Source of the DNA: Paramacrobiotus metropolitanus
Lineage: Eukaryota; Tardigrada; Eutardigrada; Parachela; Macrobiotidae
Direction of reading: 5' to 3'
Length of the DNA stretch: 64,000 nt
Assembly (NCBI RefSeq): GCF_019649055.1
Contig: NW_026570344.1
Coordinates: forward strand, 248,001 to 312,000
Shown here: positions 24,175-57,994 of the stretch, piece by piece
Position numbering within the stretch: the stretch's first letter is position 1
Layout: the number at the start of each line of letters is the position of its first letter
The notes under the pieces: model-generated
Told to the model about the DNA's origin: nothing
The model's input: the letters and a program-made list of their open reading frames with translations, nothing else
Databases searched by the model: none
Position numbers and translations under genes: made by a program

Positions 24175-25307
24175 TCAATTTGTGAATATGGAACGTATTG
24201 CCTGGATCAGTTCCAGGAATGCCGCTCTCAAATCACTTAACGCTATTACGAAAAATACCGGATCCAGCAAAACTTGTACGCTATAGAAAAACGCAGCAAT
24301 ACTGAAAACAGTTTGATCTTCGGGGTTAGGAATAAACGTGTACATTGTGTACACCACCAAGTTCGGTGTCCAACAAACCACGACGCTGATTGTTAACAAC
24401 GTCAGGGTCAGCATTCTGCCTGCTGATGAGTACACGGGACGTTGCGAGGGCTGGAAAACTGGTTGGTCTTGTTTGATGACCCGCTGTGATATCATGGCAT
24501 TGCTAACATCTTGAATGGTGGGCATTTGGTTGTTTTTGGATGATCCTAGCGGCCCTAATCGTCGAAGTTGCTTTAAGCGAGCCCGGTGTTTGTAAAAGAT
24601 AAACGGAAAGGCTGTTATAATAACCAGCAGTGGTACAACAAACAGCAGAAAGTGCATAGTTATACTCCATGACCTTTGCGCTTCCAGATTGACGTAACAC
24701 CCGTTAATACCGATATCTTGTCGGTAGTACAGGTAATCCGTAATTAAGCCGGGCATTATCACGATATGAACATATATCCATTTAGTAGCACAGATGGCTG
24801 CGAAAACGCTGACCTTTTGATTAGATTTATAGGAGTGAGGAAGCACTAACGCCCACAGTCGATTAAACGTTATTAGCAAATGGGCGTTGCTGATGGCAGC
24901 TTCTGCAAAACAAAGGCTGTTTTTTTAAATAATGTACAGTAACTTATATTCACGAAACGGGTATAACAAAACATGCATGCTACTAAGTAGCATGTTAAAG
25001 TCTTTAGTTGCTTACGTAAAGCATAATTGCTGTACAGATATGCCGAACATGCGGCGGAAGTTTTGAATTTCCAATAATCTGGGTGAAATTCAATTCCAAT
25101 ATCGAAAACATTTTCCCAGATGCAGTAGATAAAATTAGTCAGAGTTAAATTCAACATAAATACGTTAAATGGCTTTCGGTTAAAGTTGTTGAGACGACAG
25201 AAGAGAAATAGAACAAGCACATTGGCTGGCACACTGAGAAAAAACACAATTGTTGTGCTGATGGCTGAGAAACTGGGGTGATCGAATTGCTGGCAGCTGT
25301 TGTCCCA
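24175..25307 (-). CDS. Rhodopsin-like G-protein-coupled receptor (orphan), first of pair
   Basis: Two exons are read, about 25016-25307 and 24175-24902, giving seven membrane segments: TM1 FFLSVPANVLVLFLFC, TM2 FMLNLTLTNFIYCIWENVF, TM3 ending NAHLLITFNRLWAL, TM4 around TKWIYVHIVIMPGLI, TM5 HFLLFVVPLLVIITAF, TM6 ISVVVCWTPNLVVYTMY and TM7 FFYSVQVLLDPVFFVIAL. The TM3 cysteine and an ECL2 cysteine (GCYVN) are present and TM6 has CWTP. The usual DRY is NRL and NPxxY is DPVFF, so this is an unusual class A receptor. The ligand cannot be told. The extreme N-terminus is unresolved: the coding frame meets a stop at 25308-25310, while an ATG in another frame (25357) opens an Asn/Thr-rich stretch, so an upstream exon or a frame break is likely. 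The paralogue at 28935 shares its intron position. Confidence 0.82.
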
Positions 25308-28934: not shown

Positions 28935-30050
28935 TTACTTTCTGCAGTTACACGACGTCAGTAACTGTAGGAATGCAATTCTGAGATCGCGAAGTGCCAC
29001 TAAAAACAGAACCGGATCCATAAGCGCTTGCACGCTGTACATGAACGTAACTACAATAAATATGGTGAGATCGTCCGGTAGAGGGATAAACGAGTACAGC
29101 GTAAAGGCGATAAAATTCGGCGTCCAACAAATCATCACGCTTACGGTTAGCAGTGTTAAGAGAAGCATCTTTTGCGAGCTGTTTCGGAACAGGCCAGTCC
29201 TTTTTGCGCTGATAGTGGATTCAACCGTCGCTGGCTTTTTTAACACTACGCCATCGTTGTCACATTGTCGTCACGTAGTTGCAACATAGTCAGCCGATGC
29301 AGTCGTTGCCGGTGTTTGTAGTGTATGAAAGGATAAGCCAACGTCATAATGCATAATGGCGTACACTGCAGCAGAGACTGCATGATGACATTCCAGGTTT
29401 TCTGGGCTTCTATATTAAGGAAGCAGCCTCTGCTTGATCTTACTGGATCTTCTCGATAGTACAGGCCATCGCTGATAAGTCCCGGCAGCATAATGACGTG
29501 GACGAAGATCCATTTAGCCATGCAAATGGCGACAAAAACACTGACTTTTTGATGAGTTCTGTACGAATGTGGAAACAAGATTGCCCAGAGTCGATTTAAG
29601 GTGATCAGTAAGTGAGCGTTGCAAGTTGCGGATTCTAAAGATAAATATTTAGCACCAAGTAGGAGTACTAGATGCTAATCAAGGATATTTCTAAAGGTCA
29701 CACTTACGTATCATGTAATTGCTGTATAAATATACCGAACATATCACAGAACTCCTGGATTTCCAGTAGCTGGGAGAGAAGGCAGCTCCAATATCGAATG
29801 CATTTTCCCAGATACAGTAAACAAAATTTGTTATGGTCAGATTAAGCACAAAGACATAAAAGGGTTTCCTTTTTAGGTTGCGGACACGAGAGAACAGATA
29901 CAGCACCAGACCATTGGCGGTTGTACTGAGGATAAACACGACCGTGACGCTAATGGCTGTAAAGGTCGGCGTTACTAAATTACCCATAGATGCGCCCGTG
30001 CCATTTAAGGAGTAATTGGACCTTTGCAAGCTGCTATTAACCAAATCCAT
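28935..30050 (-). CDS. Rhodopsin-like GPCR (orphan), second of pair; frame break in third intracellular loop
   Basis: Exons 29708-30050 and 28935-29634. The start is MDLVNSSLQRSNYSLNGTG, an N-glycosylation-rich outer tail; an in-frame ATG at 30104 would add 18 residues. Paralogous to the receptor at 24175: the same intron after TM3, NAHLLITLNRLWAI in place of DRY, TM6 VSVMICWTPNFIAFTLY and TM7 FMYSVQALMDPVLFLVAL. Between about 29249 and 29275 the frame ending ...RDDNVTTMA stops (TAG), and the frame beginning ...VLKKPATVESTIS carries on through TM6 and TM7. The two open frames overlap by about 24 bases, within intracellular loop 3. This is either a one-base frameshift that inactivates the gene, an assembly error near an A-run, or an unusual splice. 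All other key residues look intact, which favours a recent loss or an error. Confidence 0.78.
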
Positions 30051-30104
30051 ATAAATACAGTTAAAGGAAAAATAACTATTCAATACAATGCCGTAGCGAA
30101 TCAA

Positions 30105-31187
30105 AATGCATTCTGGTAATTGAAAAGTTTTCTTGAGAGCCGCAACAGACAGCTGTTAGAAATAGCATTTTAGTACCAGTGCAGTTGCACTATCAAGTAC
30201 CGATATTTTTCCTGATGGTTCCACTCAAAATTATAGTCATGATGTCGGGTTTTGATATGTCGTTTGGTGTATAAATAGGAGCAACATGCAACAATATATA
30301 CCTAATACCAGGGCATGAGCACGCAGCTGTGGAAACGATGTCAAATTCTGATTAACTGTCAATACCTGTTCAAGTTCCTAAACCGTCATACTCAAATTGT
30401 TTTTTCCAAAGCTAGTTGCATGCCTAAGTTATGTAGACGAAAAGTGATGAGGCTCTAATTAGTTACGCACAAATCTTATTAATGAGTTAAAATGTGTGTT
30501 AATATATTATGTACAATATTTTTGAGATAATATTTTTGTAAACAAACTTTTTATTTTTGCAAATGAAAAACAGTTGTTTGTCCGCACTTATTACGCGCTT
30601 AAGTTACGCGAAAATTCATTTTTTGGTAAAGGTATGAGGTAAAGCCAATCCTGCTTACCGAAGCTGAAACTTAGCGGTCCTCAAGCTCACGGTTATCGTT
30701 AAACATGTGCAGTGAATGGGAAGTTGGGAACGTCGGGCGTACAGACAGATATCGACACTCTGATCACTTCCTGTTAAGTTCCTTTCATATTAAGTGATCG
30801 TTGAAATCAGTGTGGAAGATTTCTTACTTGGGTATGTGATTTCTAGAGCGTTAAACGACCAAACAGTTCTATCTGTAGACCGTTTGAGTGCATCAGTACC
30901 AGTAGCTGGTTTCACGATTAGTCTGCCGGCTACGCAGTATCTTAATGAATCCAGAACATGCTTTGCATTTCTGCTTGCTGATTTCGTTGCTACTGCGCTT
31001 ATGCCAAAAGCAAGTAGGTACAATACTTACAATTTTTAAATAAATACGAGCATTCCATGCGTCAAAAAAGTTTACATTGACATGCTGCCGTATTCGCACT
31101 CTTCATTCGCTCTCCCAGTTTGTGGGAAGCGCATGAATAAAGTAACAAGGTAACAACCAGTGGCAAATATTGTAATATTATGAACTA
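30105..31187. other. Gap between receptor 2 and peptide gene 1
   Basis: It holds the receptor-2 promoter side and the 3' end of the first WYLGR gene. Frames at 30790-31099 on both strands overlap each other and have no supporting features. Confidence 0.4.
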
Positions 31188-31721
31188 TCACTTCCTTCGT
31201 CCAAGGTACCAAGTGGTGGACACGGCAGTTTTGATTGACGGCAATCCATTCAACAGCTTCGACGAGCTGGAGGAGGCAACAGCCTGTGGCTTCGGTTTGA
31301 GTAATTTCTTCAGGTCCTCATACGACATGGTGGACAGGTCGTTGATTGGTTTGGCCAAACCAAGAAAATTGCGACCATGCTTGTACCGTAGCTTCATGTT
31401 CTCCAGTTCCATGAAAGGGTCAGGTCGACCTAATGTAAAAGACTTCATTATTTTATGGTGTTCGGGTTTGCTCTATAGTTTATATACATTTCGGACAATA
31501 TCGCACCAAGTGGACAGATCGGAGGAGAAATAGGCAAATTATTTTTATGCAGATTACTATTTTGGTGCTGTCTGCAAAACATATAGGTACAGTCAGTTGC
31601 ATTTACTTACTGTACCTCTGCGCGCTCTGTTAACACCGCTTGAAACGTCGCACTGTCGCCCAGTGATTAAAAGAAGGAAAAGGCATGCCGTGAAAAAGAC
31701 TAACCGCATAAGCAAAGCCAT
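31188..31721 (-). CDS. WYLGR-family secreted peptide precursor 1
   Basis: Two exons, 31616-31721 (106 bases) and 31188-31429, spliced in phase 1, give 115 residues. Exon 1 encodes a signal peptide (MALLMRLVFFTACLFLLLI), then a lone cysteine in GRQCDVSSG and the linker NRARR, which with the next Gly is a furin-like RxRR site. Exon 2 holds the core (LRYKHGRNFLGLAKPINDL, DLKKLLKP, a five-serine run) and the C-terminus VSTTWYLGRRK. The terminal Gly followed by three basic residues is the standard signal for basic trimming and amidation, which would leave ...TTWYL-amide. There is no cysteine in the mature part. No known neuropeptide family was recognised. A TATAAG-type box lies about 90 bases upstream of the start. 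Confidence 0.75.
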
Positions 31722-31808
31722 GGTCAGTGAAAAAATGGAAAAGACTCCTGGATTTTATGCCACTGAACCTTCAAGTCGTATGCCGTTTATTTTGTACCAC
31801 ATTTTCCG

Positions 31809-31816
31809 CTTATATA
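31809..31816 (-). promoter_or_regulatory. TATA box of WYLGR gene 1
   Basis: TATATAAG on the minus strand, about 90 bases upstream of the ATG at 31721. Matching boxes precede the other members of the array. Confidence 0.5.
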
Positions 31817-33113
31817 CGGGCTGCAACGCTGTACAGACACCAAAAGCCACAGCCCTCCATGACGTGACCGCTGCTGAAAATGACGTCCAGGCAGTTCTTC
31901 TGATCGCCTACTTACGTATATACTCAGACACTGTAAAATTAAATGAATACTTAATGCATCCGTTTCTAGATCTCCTGAAAAGGTAAAGGGAGGCTGAAAT
32001 TAAGGAAATTCGGGGTAAACAAGTGGCCATAAAATCACTGTCATGGCGCGCGTGGGGCATTCTAAGTACTGGAAGCCATTTAAAAATCCCAGGATTGCGG
32101 GGCAAGTCGCATGACATTTGAGTACCAACTGAACCGAACTAAGTGTCGTATGTCGCAGTATGCTCAGGAATTCGAGAAAAGGTTACCACCGAGAAAGAAA
32201 ATGTGACAGTGGTGCTGTGGTAGTCTTCTTATGAATTTACTTACTGTAATTAAAAGTGATAAGAAATGTGCTTGATGGCGCTGATGCTCGGCTTATTATT
32301 AGGATATATATTAGCTTACGACTATTTTAAGCTATGAAACTATTAAACTATTAAACTATAAACTGATTACATAATTAACTGTATCAGTTGCTGATGGACA
32401 AATATTTTGAATGTGAGCAGAGACTTCACGACTGTCCTACATTTTGGCAACCGAGAGAACAAATTCCCAAATTTAACGCAGTTTCACACAGAGAGGAAAG
32501 AACAATTGGTATTTATTTGATTATAATCTTTTTGAGCCATAACAGAAGGCAGGCTAAAAAATTAGACCCCAAAAAGACATAAAGGATAAAGTTTGGGGCC
32601 TATAAAGTCTTGGGTTTGGGGTTTATTTTATAAAGGATAAAGAAGGGGCGATTTAATTATCACAAGCCGTGACCTATACAGGATGAGGATTTTCCTAGAG
32701 AAAGCAAAATGTTTGCGATACAGTCAATCCAGACAGATTGGATAGGGTCGATGACGTTATCAGATTTTCTTTGTTTTTGGATTGTTCTGTTCGGAGTTTA
32801 CAAGGAATCCGTCAAAACTTAGATCTGTCAAGGAAAATATCTTATTCCTACAGGTCTTCCCGTGAACAGAAAACATAGCGAGGACAAAGAAACCAATAAC
32901 GCCATAAAAATCAACATATTGTTGGGAAACTGTGCCACATGCATTTTGTTGTGACAAAGATCTGATCTGTAAAAGCTTCAGATGCGCATGCCGCGAGTCG
33001 CAAACACTCTTTGTCTGTGCAATACGTATCAGAGAAAGAAGCAATAGCAAAGACCAGTTTTTTTTATGTGAGCGCCACACATTAATGTTACCACCCTTCA
33101 AAATTGCATTTAC

Positions 33114-33219
33114 CTCTTCGCCATCTGTGGATTCCCCTGGAAAGGTCACACTGTCTTCCGCTAACTGCGAGAAGAAAGAAGCATGCCGTTAAACAGAACC
33201 GCTGGATTAACGAATTCAT
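33114..33219 (-). pseudogene. Orphan first exon of a WYLGR-type gene
   Basis: The 106-base open segment runs from an ATG to a clean GT donor (AGAG|GTAAAT), the same length and phase as exon 1 of members 1, 3 and 4. It encodes MNSLIQRFCLTACFFLLAVS, then GRQCDLSRG and HRWRR (RxRR site). It is the closest match to member 1 (TAC.FLL...GRQCD). A TATATAAA box lies at 33283-33290. I searched the bases down to member 1 for the WYLGR-encoding exon 2 and found none, so this copy seems truncated. It could still be a live first exon joined to an unrecognised second exon. Confidence 0.65.
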
Positions 33220-33282
33220 TGCAGGATGAACTCTTGTAATTCAGTCCAATCGGCTAACGTGAAAGCAGTGTGTGTCACGGTG

Positions 33283-33290
33283 TTTATATA
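33283..33290 (-). promoter_or_regulatory. TATA box of the orphan WYLGR exon
   Basis: TATATAAA on the minus strand, 64-71 bases upstream of the ATG at 33219, placed as in the intact members. Confidence 0.5.
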
Positions 33291-34745
33291 GATGAAATGC
33301 TACATTTCTATTGTGCAGTCTTTCACGGCTAAATCCATACCTAAGTTGAAAATACCGGTCTTATCTTTGAACTGGATTGGCGATATGAATGCTTATGAAT
33401 ATTTAAATACAGCCCTTAAAAAATTTCATGTCACATCAGGTCTTTCTTTAGTATACAGGAAAATCAAAAGCAACCGGAGTAAGTCATGCCATGCAAATGT
33501 TGCATGAGTCTCTTCTAAGAGCCAAAGGTCACTTACATATTTACGCCGCCCAAACGTATGGTTCGCTGCGTTTTTGCATAACACACGTTCACCGCGTAAA
33601 CCAGGCTTAACCAGCTCACCAAAACAAATTTCACCAATTGAATTATGGTTTACAGTCCCGGATGACTGGTTCTTAAATACCTATTAAACAAATTTGTCGG
33701 TAAACCCAGTATTCACAAAGGTCATTTTTTGCGGAATGTCACAGGTCCTCTAAGTGTGACTTTGAATGTCACGACAACTGCACCATATTAATTTTAATAG
33801 TGTTTTCAAACCTGCTGCAATGTTTGCTTCTAAAGGCCGCATCAGCAGCGTAAAGGTCACAACAGCTTATCAAAAAGAGCTCCCCTCGCTAGCGCTGCCG
33901 ATATCATAAATTTCTTGGTGTCAGGCACAAGCGACAAAATCAAAATTTTTTCAGTGGTGATGTCGGTAAACCCAGTATTCACAATTTTGTAAGAAAAGGT
34001 TTTTGTAAGAAAATTGCGAAGAGGAGGAACTCGGCTGTGCTGAATATAGCTACTATAAACTGCATCATAACGATGTTGATTTCTGAATAGGAAAATCAAC
34101 TGGGTACGGCAAATAATGATAGGCGTACTGTAAATAGGCTTGTGTTTCATAAACCGAACGCATTTCAGCTGATGAGGGACACAAACAAAGCAGTTAAAAA
34201 GCTATATTTTCATCGTACCCGTAATGCAAGCTGCTTTTTCCCAATGACAGCCGCAGTTGGATGAAGGCGGTAAACGGAGTGACCTCTAATACTTACGTAT
34301 AACGATGTAGGTACATGTACGATTACAGTGGTAAATGTAGGTATTCATCAATAAAGGTGGTATGTAAGTGCTGTGTTATTGTTTGTTACGTTTTACACTT
34401 CCCAGATCAGATGCAGTGTGTAATTGTAACTGAATATGAGGGCGAAAATGTGCACTGAAACTATTTTGTGTGCATAGTTAACCATTGTCATGGGTGCAAA
34501 AATTAAAAATTTAAGCAGCAGCTAACGCTGACACAACAGTATGTTTTCCTGTTGCCCTTTCCACAACGGCAGGCTACGTAAAATTTCTCCGGAAACTGTG
34601 AAATGAGGAAACGATGGATTTATAGTTTGCTTTTATACAGATAAAAATATACAACAGTATCCACCACTATGGTGTCCCCGATCAGCGCACAAAGCATCCG
34701 AAAAAGCATAACAGGTGCTTGTCTTTGGACATTCAGTGCTTCTGT

Positions 34746-35288
34746 TTACTTCTTGCGTCCAAGGTACCAGTTACTGGTCAGCTCCATGTTTTCGCCGGAT
34801 GGCAGGACATTAGCCGGTAGGGAGACGTTGTGCAGCTGTTTTGTGGGGAGGGTGATTACTGACCGCAACGTCTGCATTTTGCTCAAAGCGTGGATATCGG
34901 CAGGTGGCATATTGATGCGGTCGGTGAGTGGTTTGGTTAGGAAGTACATGAGACGGTCGTGCTTATGCTGTGGCTTCATGTGCACCAATAAGTTTTCGCC
35001 TGCAAAAATGCAAAGTCATGAACAAGGTTTGCTACATTGTGTAGAATGTTTTTCGAACCCCTGGAAGTTGGAAGAATATCGTTAAATTTTCACATGCCAA
35101 GACGTGTGCACTTGCAGCTCTTTAGTGAATACGGTGCAAGGCATAACGTCGCACTAGACATTCTGTCTTCACATACCTGTGCCTATTCGCATTCCCGTAT
35201 TAACCTCCGAAAGGTCACACTGGAATCCACTAATGCCAAGTGACACGAAACAAGCCATGAAGAGAAAGGCTTGCGTCAGTGATACCAT
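34746..35288 (-). CDS. WYLGR-family secreted peptide precursor 2
   Basis: Exons 35177-35288 (112 bases) and 34746-34999, phase 1, 121 residues. The signal peptide is MVSLTQAFLFMACFVSLGIS, followed by GFQCDLSEVNTGMRIGTG. The linker lacks the RxRR site seen in members 1, 3 and 4. The core KPQHKHDRLMYFLTKPLTDR aligns with members 1 and 3, then ADIHALSKMQTLRS, and the C-terminus is LTSNWYLGRKK. Donor (ACAG|GTATG) and acceptor (TTTTTGCAG) are canonical. GTATAAAT lies about 95 bases upstream of the start. The conserved tail again predicts ...SNWYL-amide after removal of RKK and conversion of Gly. Confidence 0.78.
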
Positions 35289-35377
35289 TTTGGATAGTTA
35301 TGAGGGAAACGAGATTATTCAGAGCAACAAGGACAATTAACAGCGCATGTACAAAGACTTCCCTCAAGATCTCTTCA

Positions 35378-35385
35378 ATTTATAC
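35378..35385 (-). promoter_or_regulatory. TATA box of WYLGR gene 2
   Basis: GTATAAAT on the minus strand, about 90-97 bases upstream of the ATG at 35288. Confidence 0.5.
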
Positions 35386-36854
35386 TCTATGATCCCTTGA
35401 CCAAGCAAATGTCTGCAATTTAAATGGCGGCTGACCCAACTACTGTACAATATTAACAAGTTGATACAACTATTTTTATGTGCTCTATCAATAATTTTCT
35501 GTCAGTAATTTTTCACATCCGCCTCTTTTCTGGGACCCTAGAACGCTGCAGTTCAAGGTAAATTTTTAATGCATAAAATACTCAAGGGATGTTTACTGGG
35601 GATTCGGAGTAAGTTGTTTCGAAGGTCGCTCAGCAGTCTACGCCCCACACCGCCTGGAGTTTGAGTGAAAGCAATTAATCGCGGTACTGCACTTTAATTG
35701 GCGCTGTTTTCCAAAAGGAAGACTGCCACAACGTTGCATAACGGATGCAACATAGTTCAGTTACTTCGCTTCTGAAATATTAATGCAACATCCGTCTTGT
35801 GCTTGTGACTTTCAAGGTCCTAATGCGTCTAGAGATTCGTCCTTGAACTGCATGGGGTCAAACTTACGTTGTTAACCGCTGAATTATGTTGTTCAGGTGA
35901 TGTGATATATTCATTTTTTGCAAAATACAAGACGTACATACATATGTCAATTCACCGACGGTTCCACATTACTGTACCATGAAGCCAACGTGCTAACTAT
36001 TGCTCCTGGTTTCTTAATATGATCTCTCTAAACTCATCACTACGCAAACCAACACAAACTGCAAAACACAACACACGAATTTCCAGAAACCTGAAATGGC
36101 TTCGGAGTACCAAACACTTTGACGCGATTTATTTTGGTCTACTTCTGTAAGAAATATTGCCAAAACTCAAATCTTGCCGGGTGCTGCTAGTGTGCAAAGA
36201 GCTGATTTATTTAACTATGCAATGAAGATCGATAATTATAATATTAATATTTGTATTATATGTATATATAGATATGTAGTACACGGTAGCGGGTAGAGAG
36301 GTGAACGATTGACTTATACACAAACCAAGAAGACTGCGATTTCGCAATGGCATGATTTCTCGACCGTAGACCAATAAAATAGGACAGCACAAGCAAAGTC
36401 AACACTTCTACAGCTTATCGGTTCAGACTCAGAGGAAAAGTCGCGTTGCCGAAAAAGTGAAGGGTCTTGAAAATCCAAACTGTATAAACAAGATTACCAT
36501 TTACAAGGTCATTATATGATCGCAAACTTTGCCTTTGGTTAACATTTAGCGATAAAATCAAAGATTTCACATTTCAGTCTTCATACGACGGCATTTCATT
36601 GTAACATATTATAACATGTACAGTGGCTGAGAAGTCGGCTAAAAACCTAAAGCTCATTACTACATTTACCATCAGCAGATAATTATTATTCATAACTGCT
36701 TCCGCGCTTAAATACTGCTGTAATAAACCCAATTAACACGGGATGATTTTGGTGATGATCGCTGCAACGCTTTTCGGTAATGACCCCGTCGGCAGGACAT
36801 TCGAGCAGTGTCCGGTGAATGACCTTTCTGACTTGGAACCAGTGCACTCGCTGG

Positions 36855-37483
36855 TTACTTCTTTCGACCAAGGTACCAATTGCTGGTTGGAACGCTCTCG
36901 CTGGATGGCAACACACTGGGCGGCACCAGTGAGCTATCCTGGTGTTTGGCGGATGCACTGCGTTCTGAGACTACTGACTTCAGCGGCTGCAGTTTGAGAA
37001 GTGCGCGAAGGTCCGCCGATGGCGTGCTTGTTTCGACGTCGGCAACTGGTTTGGCCAGGAAATATAGCAGACGATTGTGCTTGTAATGAGGTTTCATGCG
37101 CATTAGGTAGCTGTTGCTGGGAAAGGTATTAGATGGTTCTGGATTAAAGCAAAATAATAGCAGGTGGGATTAGGAAGTACTTCACAAATCTCTGTTTGTA
37201 CAGAAACGTAAGCTTATTGTTTTTCATAAATAATCTGACATTTCTTATGAGAAAACAAAATTCGATGGCTGAAAAATGAACATAACAAACGCTTTACAGG
37301 AAGTAAGTCATTGTTATAAATTTCGCAAAGTAAATAAGAATCGCAGTTAAATTAGGTATGTAAATTTATGACTTGACCTCTTCGTGTCCGTAAGGCTCCA
37401 TCTAAATAGTCACAAAGGCATGTATTGATGGTGAGCAATACGAGGCACACTGCGAAGCGAAGGTTCTTCTTCAACAGAACCAT
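36855..37483 (-). CDS. WYLGR-family secreted peptide precursor 3
   Basis: Exons 37378-37483 and 36855-37138, phase 1, 129 residues. The signal peptide region is KKNLRFAVCLVLLTINTCL, followed by CDYLDG and the furin-like linker LRTRR. Exon 2 begins EPSNTFPSNS and continues with KPHYKHNRLLYFLAKPVADV, SADLRALLKLQPLKS, a Ser/Pro-rich spacer (DSSLVPPSVLPSSESV) and PTSNWYLGRKK. The 3' half is almost identical at DNA level to member 4, so these two duplicated recently. An RxRR site at the linker plus GRKK at the end would release one large amidated peptide of about 90 residues. Confidence 0.8.
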
Positions 37484-37601
37484 TTTCAGCAACCACAATG
37501 GATTACGAAGCAGTGTAATTATTATTGATAGTGACCAAATCTATTTTAGCAAATTTTTCACTTAACCTTCAAAGCTTTAGCAAACACAGTGAGCGCATAC
37601 C

Positions 37602-37609
37602 TTTATATA
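37602..37609 (-). promoter_or_regulatory. TATA box of WYLGR gene 3
   Basis: TATATAAA on the minus strand, about 120-126 bases upstream of the ATG at 37483. Confidence 0.45.
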
Positions 37610-39284
37610 CGCCTTGTATCTTGTCTTGTAACTGCATCGAATTCTTAGTGATCTACCCGCGGTGAACTGAAATGTCACGTTGACTTACTCTCGAGATTTG
37701 AATAAATAATTCATAAATAATCAGCAAACAGCGGGGAAAAATTATGGCCATAACAAGGTCAGTTAAAAGTACACTTGGGTAGTTTCTTACGTGAGGGAAG
37801 TGTGACGGGTTATTAATATGCATAATTGCAGCTCTTAAATAAGGTATAAATTCTGCTGATTTTTAGACCTTTAATTTTGTGCAGCATTGATGCGAATATT
37901 ACTGCACATTTTAACTCGGGCCGTGGCGACATGTGTTTATGAGAAGATAAGTTGATTTTATCACTTCTTGACCCGACCTTTAATTCCCTGCTGTTGGTAC
38001 CCACGTATAATTACGAGTAGTAACTGACGACCACAGGCGCCTTTTCTTACCCTTTTGCGATTTAAAATAATTGTTTACTAATTTGTATTATGTTTTGGTG
38101 CAGTAGCGAAAATTATAACTTCTCCAGGCGCGTCTTGTATATTATGGAATGGAATGAAGAATTCGTTTGCCCGGTTCGATTTCGTAAAAAGGCATTCATG
38201 GATTAGATGTGCCGAGCACCGTCAAAATACGGAGCCAGGACGGATGCGTTTTAATTGTAACAATTTCGTTGTAATTTTACGTAGTCTACGTACTTCAGAC
38301 GTACCAATTAACGTCAAACATTGCGCGATAACTCTACTTAAACATACTGTCGCCGTCACGTCTCGGGTCTGCACAACACACGTCAAAAAAGTGATACCTG
38401 ACGAACCGGGTTGAATGATTTCGGCTGATTAGTAATTTACCATTAGTAATATACAATGAAAATGCGCCAAAACCCTATTTTTAAGTAAATTTCTGCATTA
38501 GAGAGCTGCTAGTACTGTAGTTTATTCTAACGGTAGCCACACAGAACTATAAATTAAACTGCCGTTTTAAAACTGCAAGAATCTTTAAAGTATAAAAGTC
38601 ATTGTGTTACACTGCGTAACAAGCGAAAAAATAAATGCCAAGAATAAATAACATATTTATCTGGCGACAGCCGCGTTAAAATTAGTCGGCAATCCGCCTG
38701 CCTTCACGACCTTTCAAAGTATACACTATATAGTCTTAACTGAAGTTTGCGTTTACTCGCTAACTTGTTTCAACGATGCGAGAGAAACGCCGGCAAGAGC
38801 TGCTCTCTCTTTTGAACAGGACATCAATGTTAGCCGCCGGACTTGAGCGAACCGACGGATGTTATTCTCCTCCTTCCTAGAATGTACCACGACTCCACGA
38901 GCATGTGTGCCAGCGAATCGCCTGCCTTTCCTGTTTGCGTACGGTGCGCAAAACTGCCATTTTACCTACGGACTACCTAACCGTCAGCTCTATCTCATGC
39001 TGGCCCAGTTGCATTTATCGAATTGGTGTTTTTTCGGCATGTGCGAGTCTTTTGCCTGTTATCTCCATTTTTGTGTGTGTCAAAGTTTGATATTGATCAT
39101 TGGAAGTTAACGTTTGTAATCTTCCTGTTACCCGCCTTCCCAACCCTTAAGCAATTAAGTTTTGTCTTGTTGGCTTCCTCAGTTATAGCAGCGTTATTGT
39201 GAAACTCATTAAAGGTCATTCCTCACTCGCGCTGCTCTCTCGCTATGGTACGCACAGAACCGCACCGGAAGGCAGCCGCAACAT

Positions 39285-39383
39285 CCTGGCCACGTATCAG
39301 GATCCATCTCACTCCCTGGCCACGAATTAGGGTATCACCTGGCCACGTATCAGGTGTCTTCGACCCCCTGGCCACGAATCAGG
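39285..39383. repeat. Four-copy interspersed repeat CCTGGCCACGWATYAGG
   Basis: The 17-base unit occurs at 39285, 39315, 39338 and 39367, in one orientation, separated by 6-13 unrelated bases. Only the positions marked W and Y vary. Function unknown; it may be a degenerate minisatellite or a clustered protein-binding site. Confidence 0.75.
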
Positions 39384-40058
39384 TGGCACTTCGCGCGATA
39401 ACACGTATACGCTCCTTCCGGTGGCCGAGCATGTTCTGACGTTTTCCACGAGACTCCGCGGCCGAGACGAGGCTGGCCATATGCCCCAAAACCATGCCGG
39501 CGTTTCTCGAATACATCGTTAATGCCCCTATAATGCATGGTCGGCCTATAATTTATTTTAAAAAATTACACGTTCAGCTGGCCTTAACGTCTTACACTCC
39601 TAACGTCATACAAAGTTATAATGTTAGAACACCATAATACTCGTATATTATACTGTATAAATTAAACAAGTCAAATGCTGTATACAAAGTAACAACAAAG
39701 TGCATCCTAAACCAAAGCATAAATAATTCATAACCTTCCTTAATACAGAAGTAGGAAATATGATAATGGGAATTAAGCAATTTTAAGAAACTGGCTGCGA
39801 TAATTTTTTATGCCGCGGGGATTGGAATCGTGCATAATCTCATTAGTAAGTGATATCCAGGGAACCCTCCTGCTTCGGCGGTTGTGTATATGAATAAAAC
39901 TGATAATGAATGTAGGGCAAAATTTAACGAATTTCGTGCTAGAAAATTGCAATGGGTGATACAAAAAAATAAATCAATGCTGGGCACTAGTACTTTTAAT
40001 GTGTGACGGTTTATTTGATTTAACATAGCTGTAAGGTATACAATACATACAATACATA

Positions 40059-40089
40059 GTTTCAATCACTTTACAAAAGTGATTGAAAC
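40059..40089. repeat. Perfect 14-bp hairpin, 3-base loop
   Basis: GTTTCAATCACTTT, loop ACA, then AAAGTGATTGAAAC. The stem is perfect. There is no T-run after it and no adjacent gene that would explain it. Confidence 0.7.
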
Positions 40090-40716
40090 AACTGGCAAAT
40101 TATAATGGTCTAAGCAAGGAATAAAAATTTAGGCCTCATAACGAGACTGACCAATGGACACATTAACATAATTTGCTTGTGAAAGCCAACAAAAGTACAT
40201 ACTGCTGATTCCCGTTGTGAAACTGAAATTACAGCTATGGAAGGGGTCACAAAAGCGCAGCGGCTTCCCTCGTACATATGTGCCCTTGGCCCGGCTCAAA
40301 ATACAAGAATGATGTCGACTCAGAACAAAAGAATGATTAGTGAGAGCACAGCAAAATTAAAGTTTGTAAAGTGTTGATCCGCGCAAAATAGGTCTAAGCT
40401 TTTCGAAAATTCAACCTTTGAAAGGAAATGCTCCAAGACATGCTCCGCATTCCGTAAGTTTTAAAAGTTTTTAGGGTTTTAATACTTGAGACTCTTTAAA
40501 ACCTACAGTGTTTTAAAATTTAGCAACCGGTGCTACGTTATCGATGTTGAGTTATGCTGCATAAAAACGAAAAAGATTATTGGCAGTTGTGATTTGCTTA
40601 TGATCATGACTACGCCTACGGTATACGATTGCAGGTTTACATCTATCTCTATGTATAGTACTACAAATTTATGTTTTCTGTTTTGAGATTGTCGCATTAA
40701 GTGGGTATTTTGCCAT

Positions 40717-40813
40717 CCGGTGTATGGCGTACCAAATAAGTTTTAAGGTTTTAAGGTGAGTTTTAAGTTTTAAGGTTTACGGGGGGTGAGGTATTTGGTA
40801 CGCCATACCGGTG
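40717..40813. mobile_element. About 97-bp palindromic element
   Basis: TATGGCGTACCAAATA (40723-40738) and its exact reverse complement (40792-40807) flank an internal run of TTTTAAGG-like repeats. CCGGTG lies outside both arms. This resembles a very short MITE. Confidence 0.55.
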
Positions 40814-41353
40814 AGACAGTTATGCGCTAGAATTTAGTACGCACGATTTTACTTCATTATTCAAGTAGCTCATAAATAGTTCGAGCAGTAGCGATTTCCG
40901 GGTTAATTCTGAGGGAGTTGCTATAAAGTATATATATCGAATTCAAGAATAGAGCATGGCGCAAGTATTCGCAGTCGGGAACGTACGATCTACGCTCGTG
41001 CTTCCTTTTTCCCCCATTACGAATGCATGTACTTGTATTTAATCGACAGGAAGAAAGACTGTGTGGAAACATCCGTTATTTGACATCTGCCTACGCTATC
41101 TTGATGGGAACCAACCGCTTTATTTAGCTGGAATGTTCCTGCAAAGAAAATCCGAAATAAAATCGTTTGCCGTTGCGTTTTGAATAAAATTAAATATTCA
41201 GGCTTGTTGGAGGAAAATTTCGACCTGATATTTCCAAAATAACATTTTGATATCACGACAGATAGGGCACCCTGTATACGCAAGTTATACCGCTTCCGCT
41301 CTCCGGGTTAAGCAGATGGAAAAACCAACATTCTTCCTTCTTCGGTCACATTA

Positions 41354-42321
41354 CCGGGTGGCTGAACAAAATGGCGGTCTGTTTTACCAGAGTGCGCTGG
41401 GTCCGTCCGATGCCTGACTGACACCGTTTTAGTCTTATTCGAAAGAGCAATGTTTTCAGCATATAAAAGTTAAATTAAACCGACAATAAACAAAGGTTTG
41501 ACTTTTTTATGAATTTTTTTGGAAAACTAGGTGGGTTTGACGGTTGGCCAGGAAGCGAAAATTTGATTTCATCCCTTTTTAAACAAAAATTCGCTACTGT
41601 TCAGTAAAGGACATTCATGTAGCTCACGTTACTATTTCGGATAGGGGTTGTTCTAGTTTTTTTGCTGTTGGAAACAGGAAAATTCTAGCAACCGTATTTG
41701 GCCAGTTTAGGAAATAACTGATCATGAAAGTCCACACGAATAATTGTCGTGAAATCCACAAGCAGAGTTTTCGAAAGCAAATTTCTGACCAGCGTTTTAG
41801 GAGCTTGTATGGTTTAATGTTATTTCTGCAAGGACAATGTGTTAGTTACATATTGTATAAAATCGAAACCGACATCTTTTGCTGCAACCTGTCATTTAGC
41901 CGAAAATTTAAATCAAAACTGCTTAATCAAATCAAATAAAACATCGGCATTTTTTGGGAAAGTCAAAAAGTGCGCTGGTGAATAATTCGTCCAGCGCATG
42001 CGGCAGGTCCAGAAAATTTTTACTAATGAAAGAAGATGTAGTTTTCTAGACAGAACATTAAAAAATAACAAAAACGTCCGTACGGAAAAGAAATGCCACG
42101 ATATTCTAAGTTTTGCGAGCTGGCCAGAATATGTTTTTGGCATGACTTTGATTAGAACCATTTAAAACGAGAACGGTTAAATTTTTTTACAAACGTTTTA
42201 TTGTTTTTAGTAGCCAATAAATTGTCTATTTAACAAGTCTAAGTACGAGTAGTTTACGGGGGAACGCGGTTTGTGAGGAGCAAATTAAAAACGGAGCCCG
42301 CCATTTTGTTCAGCCACCCGG
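41354..42321. mobile_element. 968-bp inverted-repeat element with TA target site
   Basis: The 24-base perfect terminal inverted repeat starts CCGGGTGGCTGAACAAAATG, and TA flanks both ends (41352-41353, 42322-42323). TA targets point to a Tc1/mariner or related family. The internal sequence has no transposase-length frame, so it is non-autonomous. Confidence 0.75.
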
Positions 42322-43254
42322 TATTTGCGTGTGCTAAGTGCACCGAAATCCGGTCGATACTTGAAGATATTTCTACTCATACACCTGCTATTAGCCATAA
42401 TTAACAGCATTCAAAATAATTTGTTTTATGTTACAGATGCAGTACGGATATTCTACCAGAACTAACATTAGCACCATTACGTGTAATATGGTTCAAATGA
42501 AATAAAGCATGGATACACCAAGAAACTGGAAAAACCGCTGCTTCCTGTGTTCCCTGAACGGATGTTGCGTTTTACCGTTAAATATCTGGTGGGAAGCTCT
42601 GAAGTAGACATCTATGAGAGTGGGTTTCTCCTGTATGACACTGCAATAAATCGTGCCCGGTTTCGGATGAGGGCAGCATGGCCGCCAGTCCCCACGGGTC
42701 CCCTACCATGTTCCACCCTTGACCCAACTAATAATTACTGAAAAACTGAAGTAAAAGATCGACCGGAATGAGTGACTGCTGTACATTTAATTATGTCACA
42801 GAATTATCTATTCTATGTTAACTTTTGTTTACGAAGTTACTGTTCAAGTATGCTGCTGCTTAAGTTTTAGAATCTGCGGAGGCAGGAGGTACGTACTGTA
42901 GTTATTCAGTCATACCGTATAAAAACGCCACGCATAAACTTTTTCAAATCAACAACTTAAGGGGACGGCTATGAGACCTTCATTTTTACAATACACAACT
43001 CAGGTATGTAAAGTTCGAAGCTAAGTTTTTGAGTCCAATACTTTATTAAGTAATACTCGTACAGCTATAGTACGACAAAGGGCAAAATGATTGTTAATGT
43101 CAGTCAGATTGTAGCAATGATTCAGACGTTTGCTCTTTTAGAAACCCAACTGACAAGCTGGTACGTTGAACAACAAATGCGACACACAAAACTCTGGTAG
43201 CATACACACCGATAAAACCGAGCGCTGTATGGACATTAACGGGCGTACAGTAAG

Positions 43255-43787
43255 TCACCTCTTCCGACCTAGGTACCAGTTGCTGGTCGGAATGCTCTCG
43301 CTGGATGGCAATACACTAGGCGGCACCAGGGAGCTGTACTGGTGCTTGGCGGATGAGCTACGTTCTGACGGTCGCAGTTTAAGTAGTGCGCGCAGATCCG
43401 GCGACGACGTAATGGTCATTTCGGTTATTGGCTGGCTCAGAAGAAACAGTAGGCGATCGTCTTTGAACTGCGGGATTGTATATGCCTGGTGTCCTTCGGC
43501 GGTTGAAGGTTCGACTATATATGTCTATAATTATTTCACAATACTGATTTTTCTAGATTTTTGATTTAGACTTTAGAGGATAGGTGGATGTGTACAAGCT
43601 GTATTGTTAAGAATCGTAATATTGCCCGCACTTTACCATGTTGCATATGTTTCTTTGGGGATTTCTAACCCGTAACCTTACCTCTTCGCAGTCGCTCTAA
43701 CCAAGTTCCAAGGTCACACCGGCAGCCACCGATTACGAATATAACAAAAAGCATCTGCAGGTAAAACTTAGGTAGTGATGCGGCCAT
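43255..43787 (-). CDS. WYLGR-family secreted peptide precursor 4
   Basis: Exons 43682-43787 (106 bases) and 43255-43514, phase 1, 121 residues. The signal peptide MAASLPKFYLQMLFVIFVIG precedes GCRCDLGTW and the furin-like linker ERLRR. Exon 2 opens with EPSTAEGHQ (compare EPSN in member 3) and continues with IPQFKDDRLLFLLSQPITEM, SPDLRALLKLRPSER, HQYSSLVPPSVLPSSESI and PTSNWYLGRKR. Alternative acceptor AG at 43494 also keeps the frame. The last residue is Arg rather than Lys, still basic. The second exon is nearly identical to that of member 3 over its 3' half. Confidence 0.78.
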
Positions 43788-46374
43788 TTCGGCAAACTGC
43801 GAATATGAAGCACACCGGGAACTGAAGGAACACGCAAATCAGTCTTCAAATGCTGAGGCGACCGTGATAAAAACTCTTAAAACTACTAAAACTATCGAAC
43901 TACAGAATTTTTCTCTCGCCTAAACTGCCATATACTAACCACGAGTACGATTAGATTTGTGCAGTTTTATATTCGCTTCTCATCAAATCCCTCGGGGACA
44001 GCAAGCAGAAACTGTCTAAAATATTGCCGTGTTGCATGCGTCTGGTTTGTATTAAAAATTCGCCTATGCCAGGAAAGAAACCACCAGGAACGCAGAATTA
44101 TAACGTCTGAGAAATTAGGATTTATTAAGGGAATGATTAAAGTGTGCGTGGGGAGTTTTGGCTACAGAATATGTCATCTAAATGTGTAATTCTAATTGCT
44201 TGGTATTCTTCGTGGATCGGTGAACTACCGATGCGTCAACTGCACGAAATTCCCGCGATGATAGAAAGATCACGAAATGCCATGCCAGACATTTGCCATG
44301 GGAGAATTGATCGCTTTAGGCTTAACAAATTCGACGTCACGCGGCCACTACGATGCATCTCAAAATCACCTGCGACATCAGACGGCAATATACTGTAGAT
44401 GTTTCAGAAGGCAATATACTGTAGATGTTCAAGTGATTGCGTTAATTATTGATACTAACATCACAGGGCTCACCGACACAAGGTCGAACGCACGAAGTGG
44501 ACCTTCACGAAGGCGATGGCAAAACAAACACGGGGACACATGAGAAACTTAGACAAATTAAGAAAAACTAAGAAAATTTAGAATTAAAAAGGCCTAATAA
44601 ATCTAAAAAACCGAAGAAGTCTAAAAAGCATAGAAAACCTAAAAAACGGTTGCTCGACAGTGTGTCGGCTCGTCTTGGTGACGATCAGCGAAATAGCGGG
44701 TCACCTTAGGGGCGTTTAATTTCGATCAAATCAAGCCTTAAATGTACGCCTTATGTCTTCATGGTCTTAATGTGTTGTGTCTTAAATGTCGTATGTTTTT
44801 AACTTTTAATGGCATCGTCTGCAACTTGGTGCCGCTAATGCTTCACGCTATCCGAATTATAAAATTAATGTACATAAAAAAGTCAGAAGGCATGCACTGG
44901 CAAGTCCAAAGTAACTTGCCTAATTACTAGGTACTCACTGTACAATGCTACCATGGTAAATTATTTAAAAGAAAAGTCGCAAAAAGACAGTGTTTCTTGG
45001 TAAAATAAGCATAAGTGCTATTAGAGTGCATATAAAATGCATTGCACGGGTTATGCACAGATTTATCGGGATTCGCGGGAAAAGAATAATCGTATCCATA
45101 TTGTCATGCATCGGTAATTTCATAATTCAACTTCAAGGTGGTAAACTGGCTCACTTCGTTGCCTATCGCTCTGATGGATATGCAATGCGTCAAGTAGGTG
45201 CTTGCATTTTAAAAAGAGTGCTATTAAAGTTGTTTAAGTAAATTTGATCTCATGAATTTTGCGAAATTCTTTTGCCAGATACCAACATTGGTAGGTGTGA
45301 ACCGAACATTCTATATCTATATATATCTAGTGTCTTTCCCCAGTACCATACTATACCATATTAAATAAAAATACATGTGCATGTGCCAAAGCGTCCACAC
45401 CTCCTGCTGAATTTGTGTGTGTTCTTTTGTTCGAATTTTGCATGCTACCTTGGAGTTGGAGAGGTATGTTAAAAGGATGTACTCCGGTGCTTTTAACTTC
45501 AAAATACATAAGTTGCTTTTGAATCAACGTGCAATCATCGCACCGTTCAGACTGTAGAGGTATTTAGTATCTATTTATTCTGTTTTTACAGTACATTGAT
45601 TTGAAGAGTGTACGATATTCACTAGATTAAAAATTCGGAGCGGCTTTAGGCTGGGCTTATTCCTGCTTTTGTTAATTATCTGTGTTCATTGCCGGACTGC
45701 CAGTCAGTGGCCTCACTGTAGTAGTTGCCTGTACATTTTCCCGTTATATACTGGAACCTTTTGTGCAGGAAACGGAGTTCTTTAAAAACATAAAAACGAA
45801 GTTACTAGCTAGCAACTTCGTAATTGTGCTTGCAGCTATTGCACAGTCAGTATCTGTGCTTCTAGCAGTAGAACAGTAGATCGATCTGCTGTTCTACAAA
45901 CTAAAGATATGTAGTACAAACAACATCGTAACTTTCGCTATAGTCCCAAAACCTTGACTTATACAGGCCCTTGATGATCTCGGCGTGAATTATCGTTTTT
46001 TCACCAGTCAATATCAGGTTTTTTTCGTTTTTTTATGTATCGTTTTTTTCCCCAGGAATTTATTATCATTACAACGTAAATTTAAATGAAGCCGCGCAGT
46101 CAGAATTAAGAAACCTTTGCATTGTCTGACGAACTTTTCCCGTTCTTCTGTTTATTTTGAATACCTGCTCCATGATTTCAAATTACGTATCCACTAGAGT
46201 AGAACATGTACAGAGGTACGTGTTATGCTCATTTTGTTGCTTTAATTTGTCGGTAAATGTTTCAACACGTTTTCTGTTTTTTGAAGAATAATACTGAATT
46301 CCGATTGTAACATTATTGAAACATTAAAAATTTAACAAATTTAAACAGTGCTGATATAAAAATAGGTAAGACGG
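43788..46374. other. Intergenic stretch between WYLGR genes 4 and 5
   Basis: No gene recognised. It holds a two-copy 26-base direct repeat near 44381-44434 and an A-rich tract (44540-44650) with many CTAAAAA-like words. An AATATAAAA box at 43965-43973 could serve gene 4. Confidence 0.4.
44383..44430. repeat. Two-copy direct repeat (26-base period)
   Basis: GGCAATATACTGTAGATGTT occurs twice, 26 bases apart. Confidence 0.7.
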
Positions 46375-47970
46375 TCACTTTCTTCGGCCAAGATACCAAG
46401 TACTGGTCACAGCGCCCTCGCCAGACTGCAGGATTCCGGACTGCACCAGAGCACTGTGTTCCTGTCGCGCCGTTGATGGACGCTCCAACGGCTGTAATTT
46501 AAGCAACGCGCGCAGATCCGTGTGGGTGGTGGATAGGTCATCCATTGCTGCTGTTTTTGATGTCGAAAGTCGCAGCAGGATGCGATCGACATGGGTGTGT
46601 CTGGCTTTCGTGTGATCGAAATGTTCTTCTGTCAGCATTGTACGGGAATAACCTATAAATAAGTTGAAAGAAGCCAGAAAAATTGCCCTTCTCCGCTAGT
46701 AACAAGATTGCTAACATTTTATGACACTTACCAGGGCACATAGGGGTCCTCCAAATTCAGAAAAATTTCATATTATGTAAAATGGTAGTATACTATCGTA
46801 GTATGGTCAAAAAAATATTTTCATCTGCCATGGTCAAGAGGGCGTGGCCAGACAGCATTTAAAAGTTTGCATATTATCACATACTATGCAATGCAGTGAG
46901 TGGAGTTATTCGTAATTAGTTTTATATTAAATTTTTACTGTAGCACCGTGAACTTTGAAACTGTCGAGTGGTGATGTAAACGAAAACCACGTGCGGCGGC
47001 TCGTGTCACTGCTGCCTAAATAACATTTTCCAAAATCTGTTATGAAATGCAGTACGAGTACATATCTGCTAATTAGTAAAAGAAGTTTTTTGCACGGTTT
47101 ACTCGTACATACAATACTAACTGATAAAAAATTTTCGAAAATGTGTACTGGCAGCAATGACACGAGCTGCCGCACGTGGGCATCGTTTACATCACAACTG
47201 GACAGCTGCAAAAGTTCACGGTGCTACAGTAAAAATTCAATATAGAACTAAATACGAATAACTCCGCTCACTGCATTGCATAGTATATGTGATAATACGC
47301 AAACTTTTAAATGCTGTCTGGCCACGCCCCCTTGACCATGGCAGATGAAAATATTTTTTTAAGCATACTACGATAGTATACTACCATTTTACAAAATAGG
47401 AAATTTTTCTGAATTTGGAGGACCCCTATGTGCCCTGGTTAGGTACTGATGGTGAGTACAAGTCATTTAGATGCGCAGTTACTTTGTGCAGTCAACTTTT
47501 AAATTCATCAGGTACAGTTGTAGCAGCTACGCCCGATTATAAATACCGTACACGTTGAATACTGTATTAAGCGCAACATGTTATAGGAGCACCGATGAAT
47601 TGTTATTAAGCAGCGGTCATCAAGATCACAAGAGTTCGGGCGCCGTTTACCATTCTTAAGGTAGTAAGAACACACCGATTTAGTAAGCAGTGATTGATAT
47701 AATGTAGTTTCGAGTAGGAGTGAGACTTTATAAAAGTATAACGTCGTAATTTTATTACATAATTTATACAAAAATATCAATAGTAAGCTAGGTTGCAACG
47801 GGATATCGGTGATGATCAGTTTTTGACCGATTGCCTTATGTCGGTTAAACGCGCCTACCTGCCCGTATTCTGGTCTCTCCATGCAAAAGGTCACATTTTC
47901 CCTTGCTCATAGTAAACAAAAAGGCAGATGCCACCAAAACCATAAATCTGAAAACTTTAGCCAGAAACAT
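46375..47970 (-). CDS. WYLGR-family secreted peptide precursor 5 (most divergent)
   Basis: Exons 47859-47970 (112 bases) and 46375-46652, phase 1, 129 residues. The signal peptide is MFLAKVFRFMVLVASAFLF, followed by KGKCDLLHGETRIRAG, matching member 2 in lacking RxRR. The core is diverged (HTHVDRILLRLSTSKTA), but TDLRALLKLQPLERPS and VTSTWYLGRRK are kept. The 1.2 kb intron is far longer than in the other members because a 708-bp fold-back element is inserted in it. The conservation of DLRALLKL and WYLGRRK while the rest drifts suggests that these two segments carry the function. Confidence 0.75.
46731..47438. mobile_element. 708-bp fold-back MITE with TTA target duplication, in peptide-gene intron
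   Basis: The arms are inverted copies of each other for about 300 bases, beginning CCAGGGCACATAGGGGTCCT and ending in its complement. TTA flanks both sides (46728-46730, 47439-47441), as in PIF/Harbinger elements. There is no coding capacity. The arms are near-identical but not perfect. Confidence 0.85.
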
Positions 47971-48239
47971 TGTGATATCCATTACGGTCCTGCAGCTGTC
48001 ATCGCATTCGGATGCGTAATACTACTGATCCTACCCAAGAAAGCTTACAACGATGATTGTTGCAGCTTGCAAGCAAATCGGTGACCAGTCTTCCACATTC
48101 AGCGCAGTAAAACCGTTATATTTAAACGCTACAGCTGCTCAGAAACATAAGAACATTTTATTTGGCTTGACGAGATTCTACCTCTATTGTGCCGCAGGAG
48201 AAACCCCGGAATAACTCGCTGATATTTCCATAAGCATCC

Positions 48240-56040: not shown

Positions 56041-57994
56041 TGATACTAGAAAATTTACTACTGGGATTTCGGTTTCGTCTCCATATTATATGATTGTTTG
56101 AGTTCTATCGAGACGCCTAAAATAAGTTGTTTTTCGGATGGTAGCTTGATCTGGTTCTAAGAACATGCTGAAATTTTACAAATTATTCTAACACATTAGC
56201 CGCACGTGTATGTATAATTCTTCTGGGTTATTTTGTAGACAAGTTATACGGAAAGCAGATTAACAAATGCAAAAGGTCACCCACTAAGCTACCACATAAA
56301 ACCCTTCGAATTCATAAAGCATTGATTGCATTTGCAACATTGTCGGCCGCGTACGTGCACGTACAGCCATGTGTGTGAAAGGGAAATTAGCAATTTGCTG
56401 GGGCCTTTTTTCAATCATGCCCTCGTCGTTACGTGCAGCGGCTGCGCTGTCCATATAGACACAGGCTTGGCCAAATAGAATACAGCATATGCGGAAGCAA
56501 GGGGTCTGGCTTGCAATCGATTGCCGATTTGGCTTTGATATGCAACTGCCCGCGCTTTGCATCCTCAGGATTCTGCGCCACGTAATCACGGGACGCCAAC
56601 CGGAACACGGTTACGCATACACACAAAAGCAATGCACCGAATTAATCCTCCCAATCAGCCGGATCACACACGCTGCACTGACATGTACGACCAATGCATC
56701 CAGGCGGCAGCTTAGCCGCGTATCCTTTTATTTTGCCCACTTTTTTGCACTCTTTTCCTGCTCTTGGACTAGCACATTTTTGAATAAACAAATGCACCTT
56801 CAAAAATAAGTGCTACAAAGTTTTTTATTAAATTTTATGAAAAAATATTAAACGTTGCAGTTTTCCTAAATAATAAAAACCTTGCTTGTGTTCTTATTGT
56901 AAGAATAATGTTTTGCATATTTGCTTAAGCCTCCAAACTAACCATAAGTAAATACGCATTATCATTTCGCGTAGCTTTAGTATTTTTAAAAACCATGTTG
57001 CAATTTAAGAACCAACAAAATAAATTTTTTTACTAGATAGGCACACGATAGCGGTAAGCTTGCATATAACATATACAGATTTGTCTTCACCAAAAAGAAC
57101 TTATCACATGTATAATAAATTTTCAAACTAGTGAGATTTAATGTTATAAAAAGTGTTTTGCTTCCTGAATATTTTTACAAGTAGTTTCTTCCCGTCCTGC
57201 GATCATATTAGCCGGTCGTTAGTTACAAGGCAACCCTAAAAGCAGCTCCCTATCTGTAACACTGTAACTGCCACAGTCACTCGGTGTTCTTCGTACAGGG
57301 CCTGATCCTACTCTATCCCTGACTGCGCGCCAGTGCGTCGCGCTCATACGGATCGCCAATCGTCCGTGTCAGATCCCAGTGCGCCGGCTCCAGTGGAATA
57401 CTGCTGCAGCGGAACACCGGTGCAGCGTTTGCGCAAGCGTGCCAGCCGGGCGTATATATTTTTCTCCCGCCATCCTGCTGCGTGTCAGCGGATCACTTTC
57501 AATAACATTTTATTTTGCCGGTTGAATGTGTATACGCCTTCGTGTACATGCGCGTCGCGATCTCGGCGATCCATCGCCCACGCTGCTGTATCATTCCATG
57601 TGTTGATGATGATCCCTTTTTCCACAAGAAAATTGCTTACTAATTGATCAACCGGCGAATTGTTATTTGGCGCAATAAAGTGCAATTTATAAATATACGC
57701 GCGCACACTATTGTGCATGATTATAAAGCGATGTACAAATACGCTGCACGCAAACTAGGTTAAAAGCGCAAGATCGTTTGTCTTTTGCTAACCGACTGCG
57801 ACATCTCAACGGCCCAAGGTCGTTCCGGTCAATTTGCCTGACCAGAAATGTCCCGGAACTGCCATCTCTCATCCATCTTATCCCGGCATCCTCTGGTTCC
57901 CAATTCCATCACCCTCCTGCAAAATCTCCGCTTCCGGTCAAAGTCTGTCATCATCCATTAGAGACAACAACTAACTGCAATAGTTGTCACCACA
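56041..57994. other. Region with unresolved minus-strand coding fragments
   Basis: The minus strand has two patches of coding-like sequence. At 56284-56640 two adjacent frames are open in succession (FRLASRDYVAQNPEDAKRG, then NDEGMIEKRPQQIANF). At 57310-57718 there is DQLVSNFLVEKGIIINTW, then in another frame PLEPAHWDLTRTIGDPYERD. Each patch changes frame partway, so they may be a degraded gene or one with unrecognised introns. No family recognised. Confidence 0.3.

Follow-up and report, generated by a model that had tools for sequence, protein, structure and literature searches.

The 64,000-nucleotide window analysed here, from the tardigrade Paramacrobiotus metropolitanus (contig NW_026570344.1, positions 248,001 to 312,000 of the forward strand), carries on its minus strand, between positions 31188 and 47982, an array of five two-exon genes (A to E) and one orphan first exon, belonging to a family of predicted secreted precursors with a WYLG motif at the C-terminus (Table 1). 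This arrangement, proposed in a first-pass annotation of the same sequence, was recovered when gene models were built by enumerating frame-keeping GT-AG introns and checking the chosen set together, the junctions being predictions. The phase-1 intron at a common point that had been claimed for the array could be modelled in all five genes, and by a crude splice score the adopted model was top-ranked for A, C and D. For B and E other junctions scored above the adopted one, which matches the relatives, and because it was picked to agree with them the phase agreement of these two genes is partly a matter of choice. First exons measure 106 bases in B, C and E and 112 in D, in line with the two lengths noted at first pass, whereas that of A spans 124 bases from the first ATG and 112 only from the second Met; the introns are 1206 (A), 167 (B), 239 (C), 177 (D) and 186 (E) bases long and the proteins 133, 121, 129, 121 and 115 residues, respectively. 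As the first-pass annotation had also reported, an RxRR linker is present in three of the five complete genes (B, C and E) and in the orphan exon, and not in A and D. Similarity within the family lies far above chance (C against B, E 2e-23, in a search of the animal's own genome).

Table 1. Features of the array and of the gene A intron (positions within the window; leaders are predicted)
Feature	Position	Strand	Description
Gene A exon 1	47859..47982	-	Leader MDITMFLAKVFRFMVLVASAFLFTMSKGKCDLLHGETRIRA; phase-1 donor CAG/GTAGGC; linker without RR
Gene A exon 2	46375..46652	-	End TSTWYLGRRK-stop
Fold-back (long palindromic) stretch in gene A intron	46727..47442	.	716 bases; inverted arms of 157, 79 and 63 nt lying one within another, with 86-96% complementarity
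Gene B exon 1	43682..43787	-	Leader and RLRR linker
Gene B exon 2	43255..43514	-	End TSNWYLGRKR-stop
Gene C exon 1	37378..37483	-	Leader and RTRR linker; weak donor GAG/GTCAAG
Gene C exon 2	36855..37138	-	End TSNWYLGRKK-stop
Gene D exon 1	35177..35288	-	Leader; linker without dibasic site
Gene D exon 2	34746..34999	-	End TSNWYLGRKK-stop
Orphan exon 1	33114..33219	-	106 bases; leader and RWRR; intact frame; phase-1 donor GTAAAT; TATA-like box
Gene E exon 1	31616..31721	-	Leader and RARR linker
Gene E exon 2	31188..31429	-	End STTWYLGRRK-stop

While the first-pass annotation had described the family as a local tandem array, and the array stands, its members reach well beyond it, to contigs C13, C70, C56 and C4. 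The homologue search was confined to the species' own genome (169,799,020 bases in 533 contigs) and used D, F, A, E, H, J and C as queries, leaving out B and G; all counts are lower bounds. In total, at least ten exon-2 loci on five contigs were found, comprising nine full models, together with two stray first exons. Gene F, on C13, has a first exon of 106 bases, an intron of only 64 bases and the ending NWYLGRK, and G and H lie together on C70 at 498-501 kb, with first exons of 106 and 100 bases, respectively. Locus I, on C56, consists of exon 2 alone and reads WYRG in place of WYLG; because of this substitution and the lack of a first exon in about 7 kb upstream, it is probably a copy in decay. 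A degenerate first exon was located on C70 near 331 kb, and no second exon was detected for the orphan exon of the window by tblastn at E up to 1; the latter may be a decayed copy or an alternative first exon spliced to exon 2 of gene E. The most distant member, J on C4, combines a 148-base first exon and a phase-1 intron of 2,895 bases with an RMRR linker, and its stop follows directly on WYLG; it has been counted in the family because its leader, aligned Cys, RxRR site, intron phase, STWYLG end and a block shared with H, MSYxDL(K/R)SLL(K/R)L, all agree. All nine full models have in common a predicted leader, a single aligned Cys, an intron in phase 1, the WYLG motif and a core built around D(L/I)xxL. 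Duplication and decay of gene copies is evident in this family. Further matches were judged to be due to chance, namely those on C71 (E 0.69; a frame that looks unrelated and, by impression only, capsid-like), on C62 (E 0.21; a coiled-coil-like frame) and on C288, C187 and C105 (E 0.67-3.2), and a repeat suspected by eye at about 39.2-39.4 kb of the window was not confirmed on checking.

The C-terminus, which had been called invariant, is indeed WYLGR(K/R)(K/R) in all five window genes, but this does not extend to the family as a whole, as four of the ten exon-2 loci, all of them outside the array, end at the Gly. The last codons thus specify Gly followed by Arg or Lys in A to F and Gly followed directly by a stop in G, H, I and J, with W, Y and G kept in all ten loci. 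The matching codons are GGA TGA AAG AAG in gene G and GGA CGA AGG AAG in E, a comparison from which the stop of G may be read as a former Arg codon turned into TGA, with Lys codons still visible downstream. The TGA is common to G, H and I, whose stops may go back to one shared event, and in J the corresponding stop is TAA.

Substitutions were examined by codon counting in 7 of the 36 possible pairs of full models, where four regional ratios of non-synonymous to synonymous change (dN/dS) are undefined through saturation and many others lie near it, making the values rough. For exon 2 the ratio was 0.15-0.50 in the seven pairs, indicating purifying selection. Over the last seven aligned codons, up to the Gly, the proportion of non-synonymous differences was 0.00 in five pairs and 0.06 in the other two, against synonymous proportions of 0.37-0.75; purifying selection on exon 2 is strongest at the C-terminus in the pairs tested. 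In the tree, B groups with F (98/98) and E with G and H (99/96), and J, A and D form long branches of unsure placement.

Several candidate signals of secretion and processing accompany this conserved tail. A putative leader, in the form of a hydrophobic stretch, was identified in 10 of 10 first exons (maximum Kyte-Doolittle mean over 11 residues 2.33-3.04, with permitted -3/-1 cleavage sites), and a TATA-like box precedes the ATG by 40-200 bases in 8 of these exons, against 17.5% of random window positions. A convertase-type RxRR site is found in seven of the nine full models, besides the window orphan. At the other end of the chain, the terminal Gly with its basic residues had been put forward as an amidation signal, and this proposal gains from the members on C70, C56 and C4, which are devoid of basic residues yet retain Gly as the last residue, and from the presence in the genome of PAM-family and convertase domains, with 14 matches to Cu2_monoox_C (the PAM family and relatives) and 8 to the P_proprotein domain of convertases. 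In the amidation pathway as described in PMC6669573, the reaction requires a terminal Gly, whose exposure is the role of the basic residues; a lack of these residues with Gly kept last is therefore compatible with amidation by PAM. This pattern does not prove amidation, as WYLG might itself be the conserved motif. The putative mature chains of the nine models comprise 67-90 residues with a net charge of -4 to +6, their start being set arbitrarily at residue 41 for A and D. An AlphaFold2 model of gene C exon 2, computed with the five window sequences, is mostly coil at low confidence (mean predicted local distance difference test score 57), and contains three short helices (8-12, 22-27 and 41-47), one of which covers the DLRALLK block.

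The first-pass annotation knew of no described family with this signature, and nothing significant was obtained in Pfam, NCBIfam and PDB. In Pfam at E up to 1 there was no match for the exon-2 frames of A, B and C, for spliced D or for the nine exon-2 members, and none for J at E up to 0.1; the sole match of the E exon-2 frame was unrelated and below threshold (E 0.18), and no profile match was seen to the curated neuropeptide families (NPY/NPF and others). NCBIfam, a prokaryotic library, returned nothing for J, C and G. In PDB, no hit was returned for C by itself at E 10, and a nine-member profile gave two ribosomal proteins only (E 1 and 1.3). A search of 5.39 million open papers for WYL strings and tardigrade neuropeptides, which covered neither the main survey (Koziol 2018) nor supplementary files, yielded no description of such a family among the papers listed, those listed for the WYL strings being unrelated. 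As regards known systems, the precursors resemble those of animal amidated neuropeptides and peptide hormones in having a predicted leader, a convertase site, a C-terminal Gly with or without basic residues and tandem paralogues, but differ in consisting of a single long chain without a significant Pfam match. Melittin- and mastoparan-type precursors end in Gly and give short cationic venom peptides; G, H and J share with them a stop placed directly after the Gly, here the putative amide donor, whereas the WYL chains have about 67-90 residues and are near-neutral in several copies. The pigment-dispersing factors (PDF) of tardigrades, which were likewise sought as amidated peptides, have two to three paralogues each in eutardigrades including Paramacrobiotus (PMC11879619). 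On the other hand, PDF peptides as given there have 18 residues, and the nine WYL exon-2 members are without a Pfam match.

Taken as a whole, these sequence features point to a family of tardigrade secreted precursors that probably give rise to amidated peptide hormones or neuropeptides, a reading that we hold with moderate confidence, and the family is possibly tardigrade-specific. The leader would direct the precursor into the secretory pathway, where a furin/PC-type convertase would cut after RxRR at the exon junction, in the seven of nine full models that have the site, and free a flexible peptide of about 67-90 residues. A carboxypeptidase would then trim the C-terminal basic residues where present, and PAM would convert the terminal Gly, already exposed in G, H and J, to the amide, leaving ...(S/T)(N/T)WYL-NH2. 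Receptor binding would fall to the conserved C-terminus together with the D(L/I)xxL block, and the N-terminal stretch and the leader would be free to drift.

A number of observations weigh against this hormonal interpretation. Genes A and D (two of the nine full models) have no dibasic linker, and the PF03712 matches do not prove PAM because this domain covers other copper monooxygenases as well. Neuropeptide precursors more typically hold short repeated peptides than one long mature chain with a single bioactive peptide. The dN/dS of exon 1 between B and F reaches 1.16 and that of the N-terminal stretch between E and G 1.37, values that exocrine families can show. The interval used for the TATA-like box was set after looking, and it holds no such box at A and J. 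As for J, its scores are weak (E 0.06 from H; 0.04 and 0.07 with J as query), genome searches with D, F, A, E or C as queries did not recover it, and its first exon was chosen by eye.

The main competing explanation is that the products are amidated exocrine peptides (antimicrobial, salivary or stylet-gland, or seminal-fluid), which would use the same secretory and PAM route and act outside the body or in a mate. We consider it rather unlikely, although it would account for a tandem array whose copies have been duplicated and have decayed, for copies scattered over contigs and for the fast drift of leader and N-terminal stretch in some pairs, and the same enzymes amidate venom antimicrobial peptides and toxins (PMC6669573). 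What speaks against it is that constraint is strongest on a short tail at the C-terminus, a pattern also seen in receptor ligands; moreover, the consistent net positive charge of cationic antimicrobial peptides was not found (-4 to +6 in nine models), and apart from the one Cys at the leader end there is no conserved cysteine framework. Of the first-pass interpretation, the idea of amidation gains support and the hormone or neuropeptide role is still the likeliest one, but the evidence does not separate a hormone from an amidated exocrine peptide. It is less probable still that the products are unamidated secreted proteins whose WYLG tail acts as a docking or structural motif, with incidental basic residues. 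The retention of W, Y and G in all ten loci, even where basic residues are missing, would fit such a motif, whereas the four loci that lack the basic tail all finish exactly at Gly, and the low-confidence structure prediction shows a mostly unordered chain. That the family consists only of chance open frames or pseudogenes is barely conceivable: stray exons do exist (the window orphan, the C56 exon 2 with WYRG and the degenerate C70 exon 1), but the exon 2 substitution pattern in the seven pairs contradicts this explanation, and phase and frame are kept in nine of nine models.

Two class A G-protein-coupled receptor genes lie beside the array on the minus strand (24175-25307 and 28935-30155; 56% identical over 118 residues), their nearest solved structures being muscarinic receptors (E 4e-7). 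The family to which they belong has at least 150 scored matches among 946 candidates in the genome; among the matches listed, six members are on the same contig and none is near the C13, C70 and C4 genes. Because this receptor family is so large, the neighbours are not evidence for a hormone role, and their adjacency as a peptide-receptor linkage was dropped. A receptor-like frame beside the C56 exon was also set aside, with Pfam 7tm_1 matched only below the cut-off (E 0.011) and nothing in PDB at E 0.01, and a 90-residue stretch of it did not match the window receptor. Elsewhere in the window, exons of an LHFPL-type membrane protein (57962-58405, E 5e-15) and of a class V aminotransferase (11165-11515, E 3e-9) were recognised. 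On contig C3, at 446-467 kb, there is a tandem SAHS-like cluster with up to 56% identity to Ramazzottius SAHS1, as expected of a tardigrade genome. SAHS proteins are not known outside tardigrades.

Returning to the peptide hormone interpretation, a bolder version of it can be put forward, which we regard as speculative and rather unlikely: a hormone family confined to tardigrades, or to eutardigrades, with at least nine paralogues derived from one ancestral J-like WYL-amide gene, would signal through members of the greatly expanded class A receptor family of this genome, and one branch, having lost its dibasic tail, would no longer depend on carboxypeptidase trimming for amidation. The class of amidated peptide precursors is itself well known, and what would be new is a sequence family within it. 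The tardigrade neuropeptide papers that were found deal with conserved families such as PDF and tachykinins (PMC11879619 for PDF). A lineage-restricted family with several paralogues would provide a handle on tardigrade-specific physiology, including moulting, reproduction and entry into the dried state, and the copies ending in Gly-stop would constitute a natural experiment showing how much of the amidation signal is dispensable while selection on the peptide persists.

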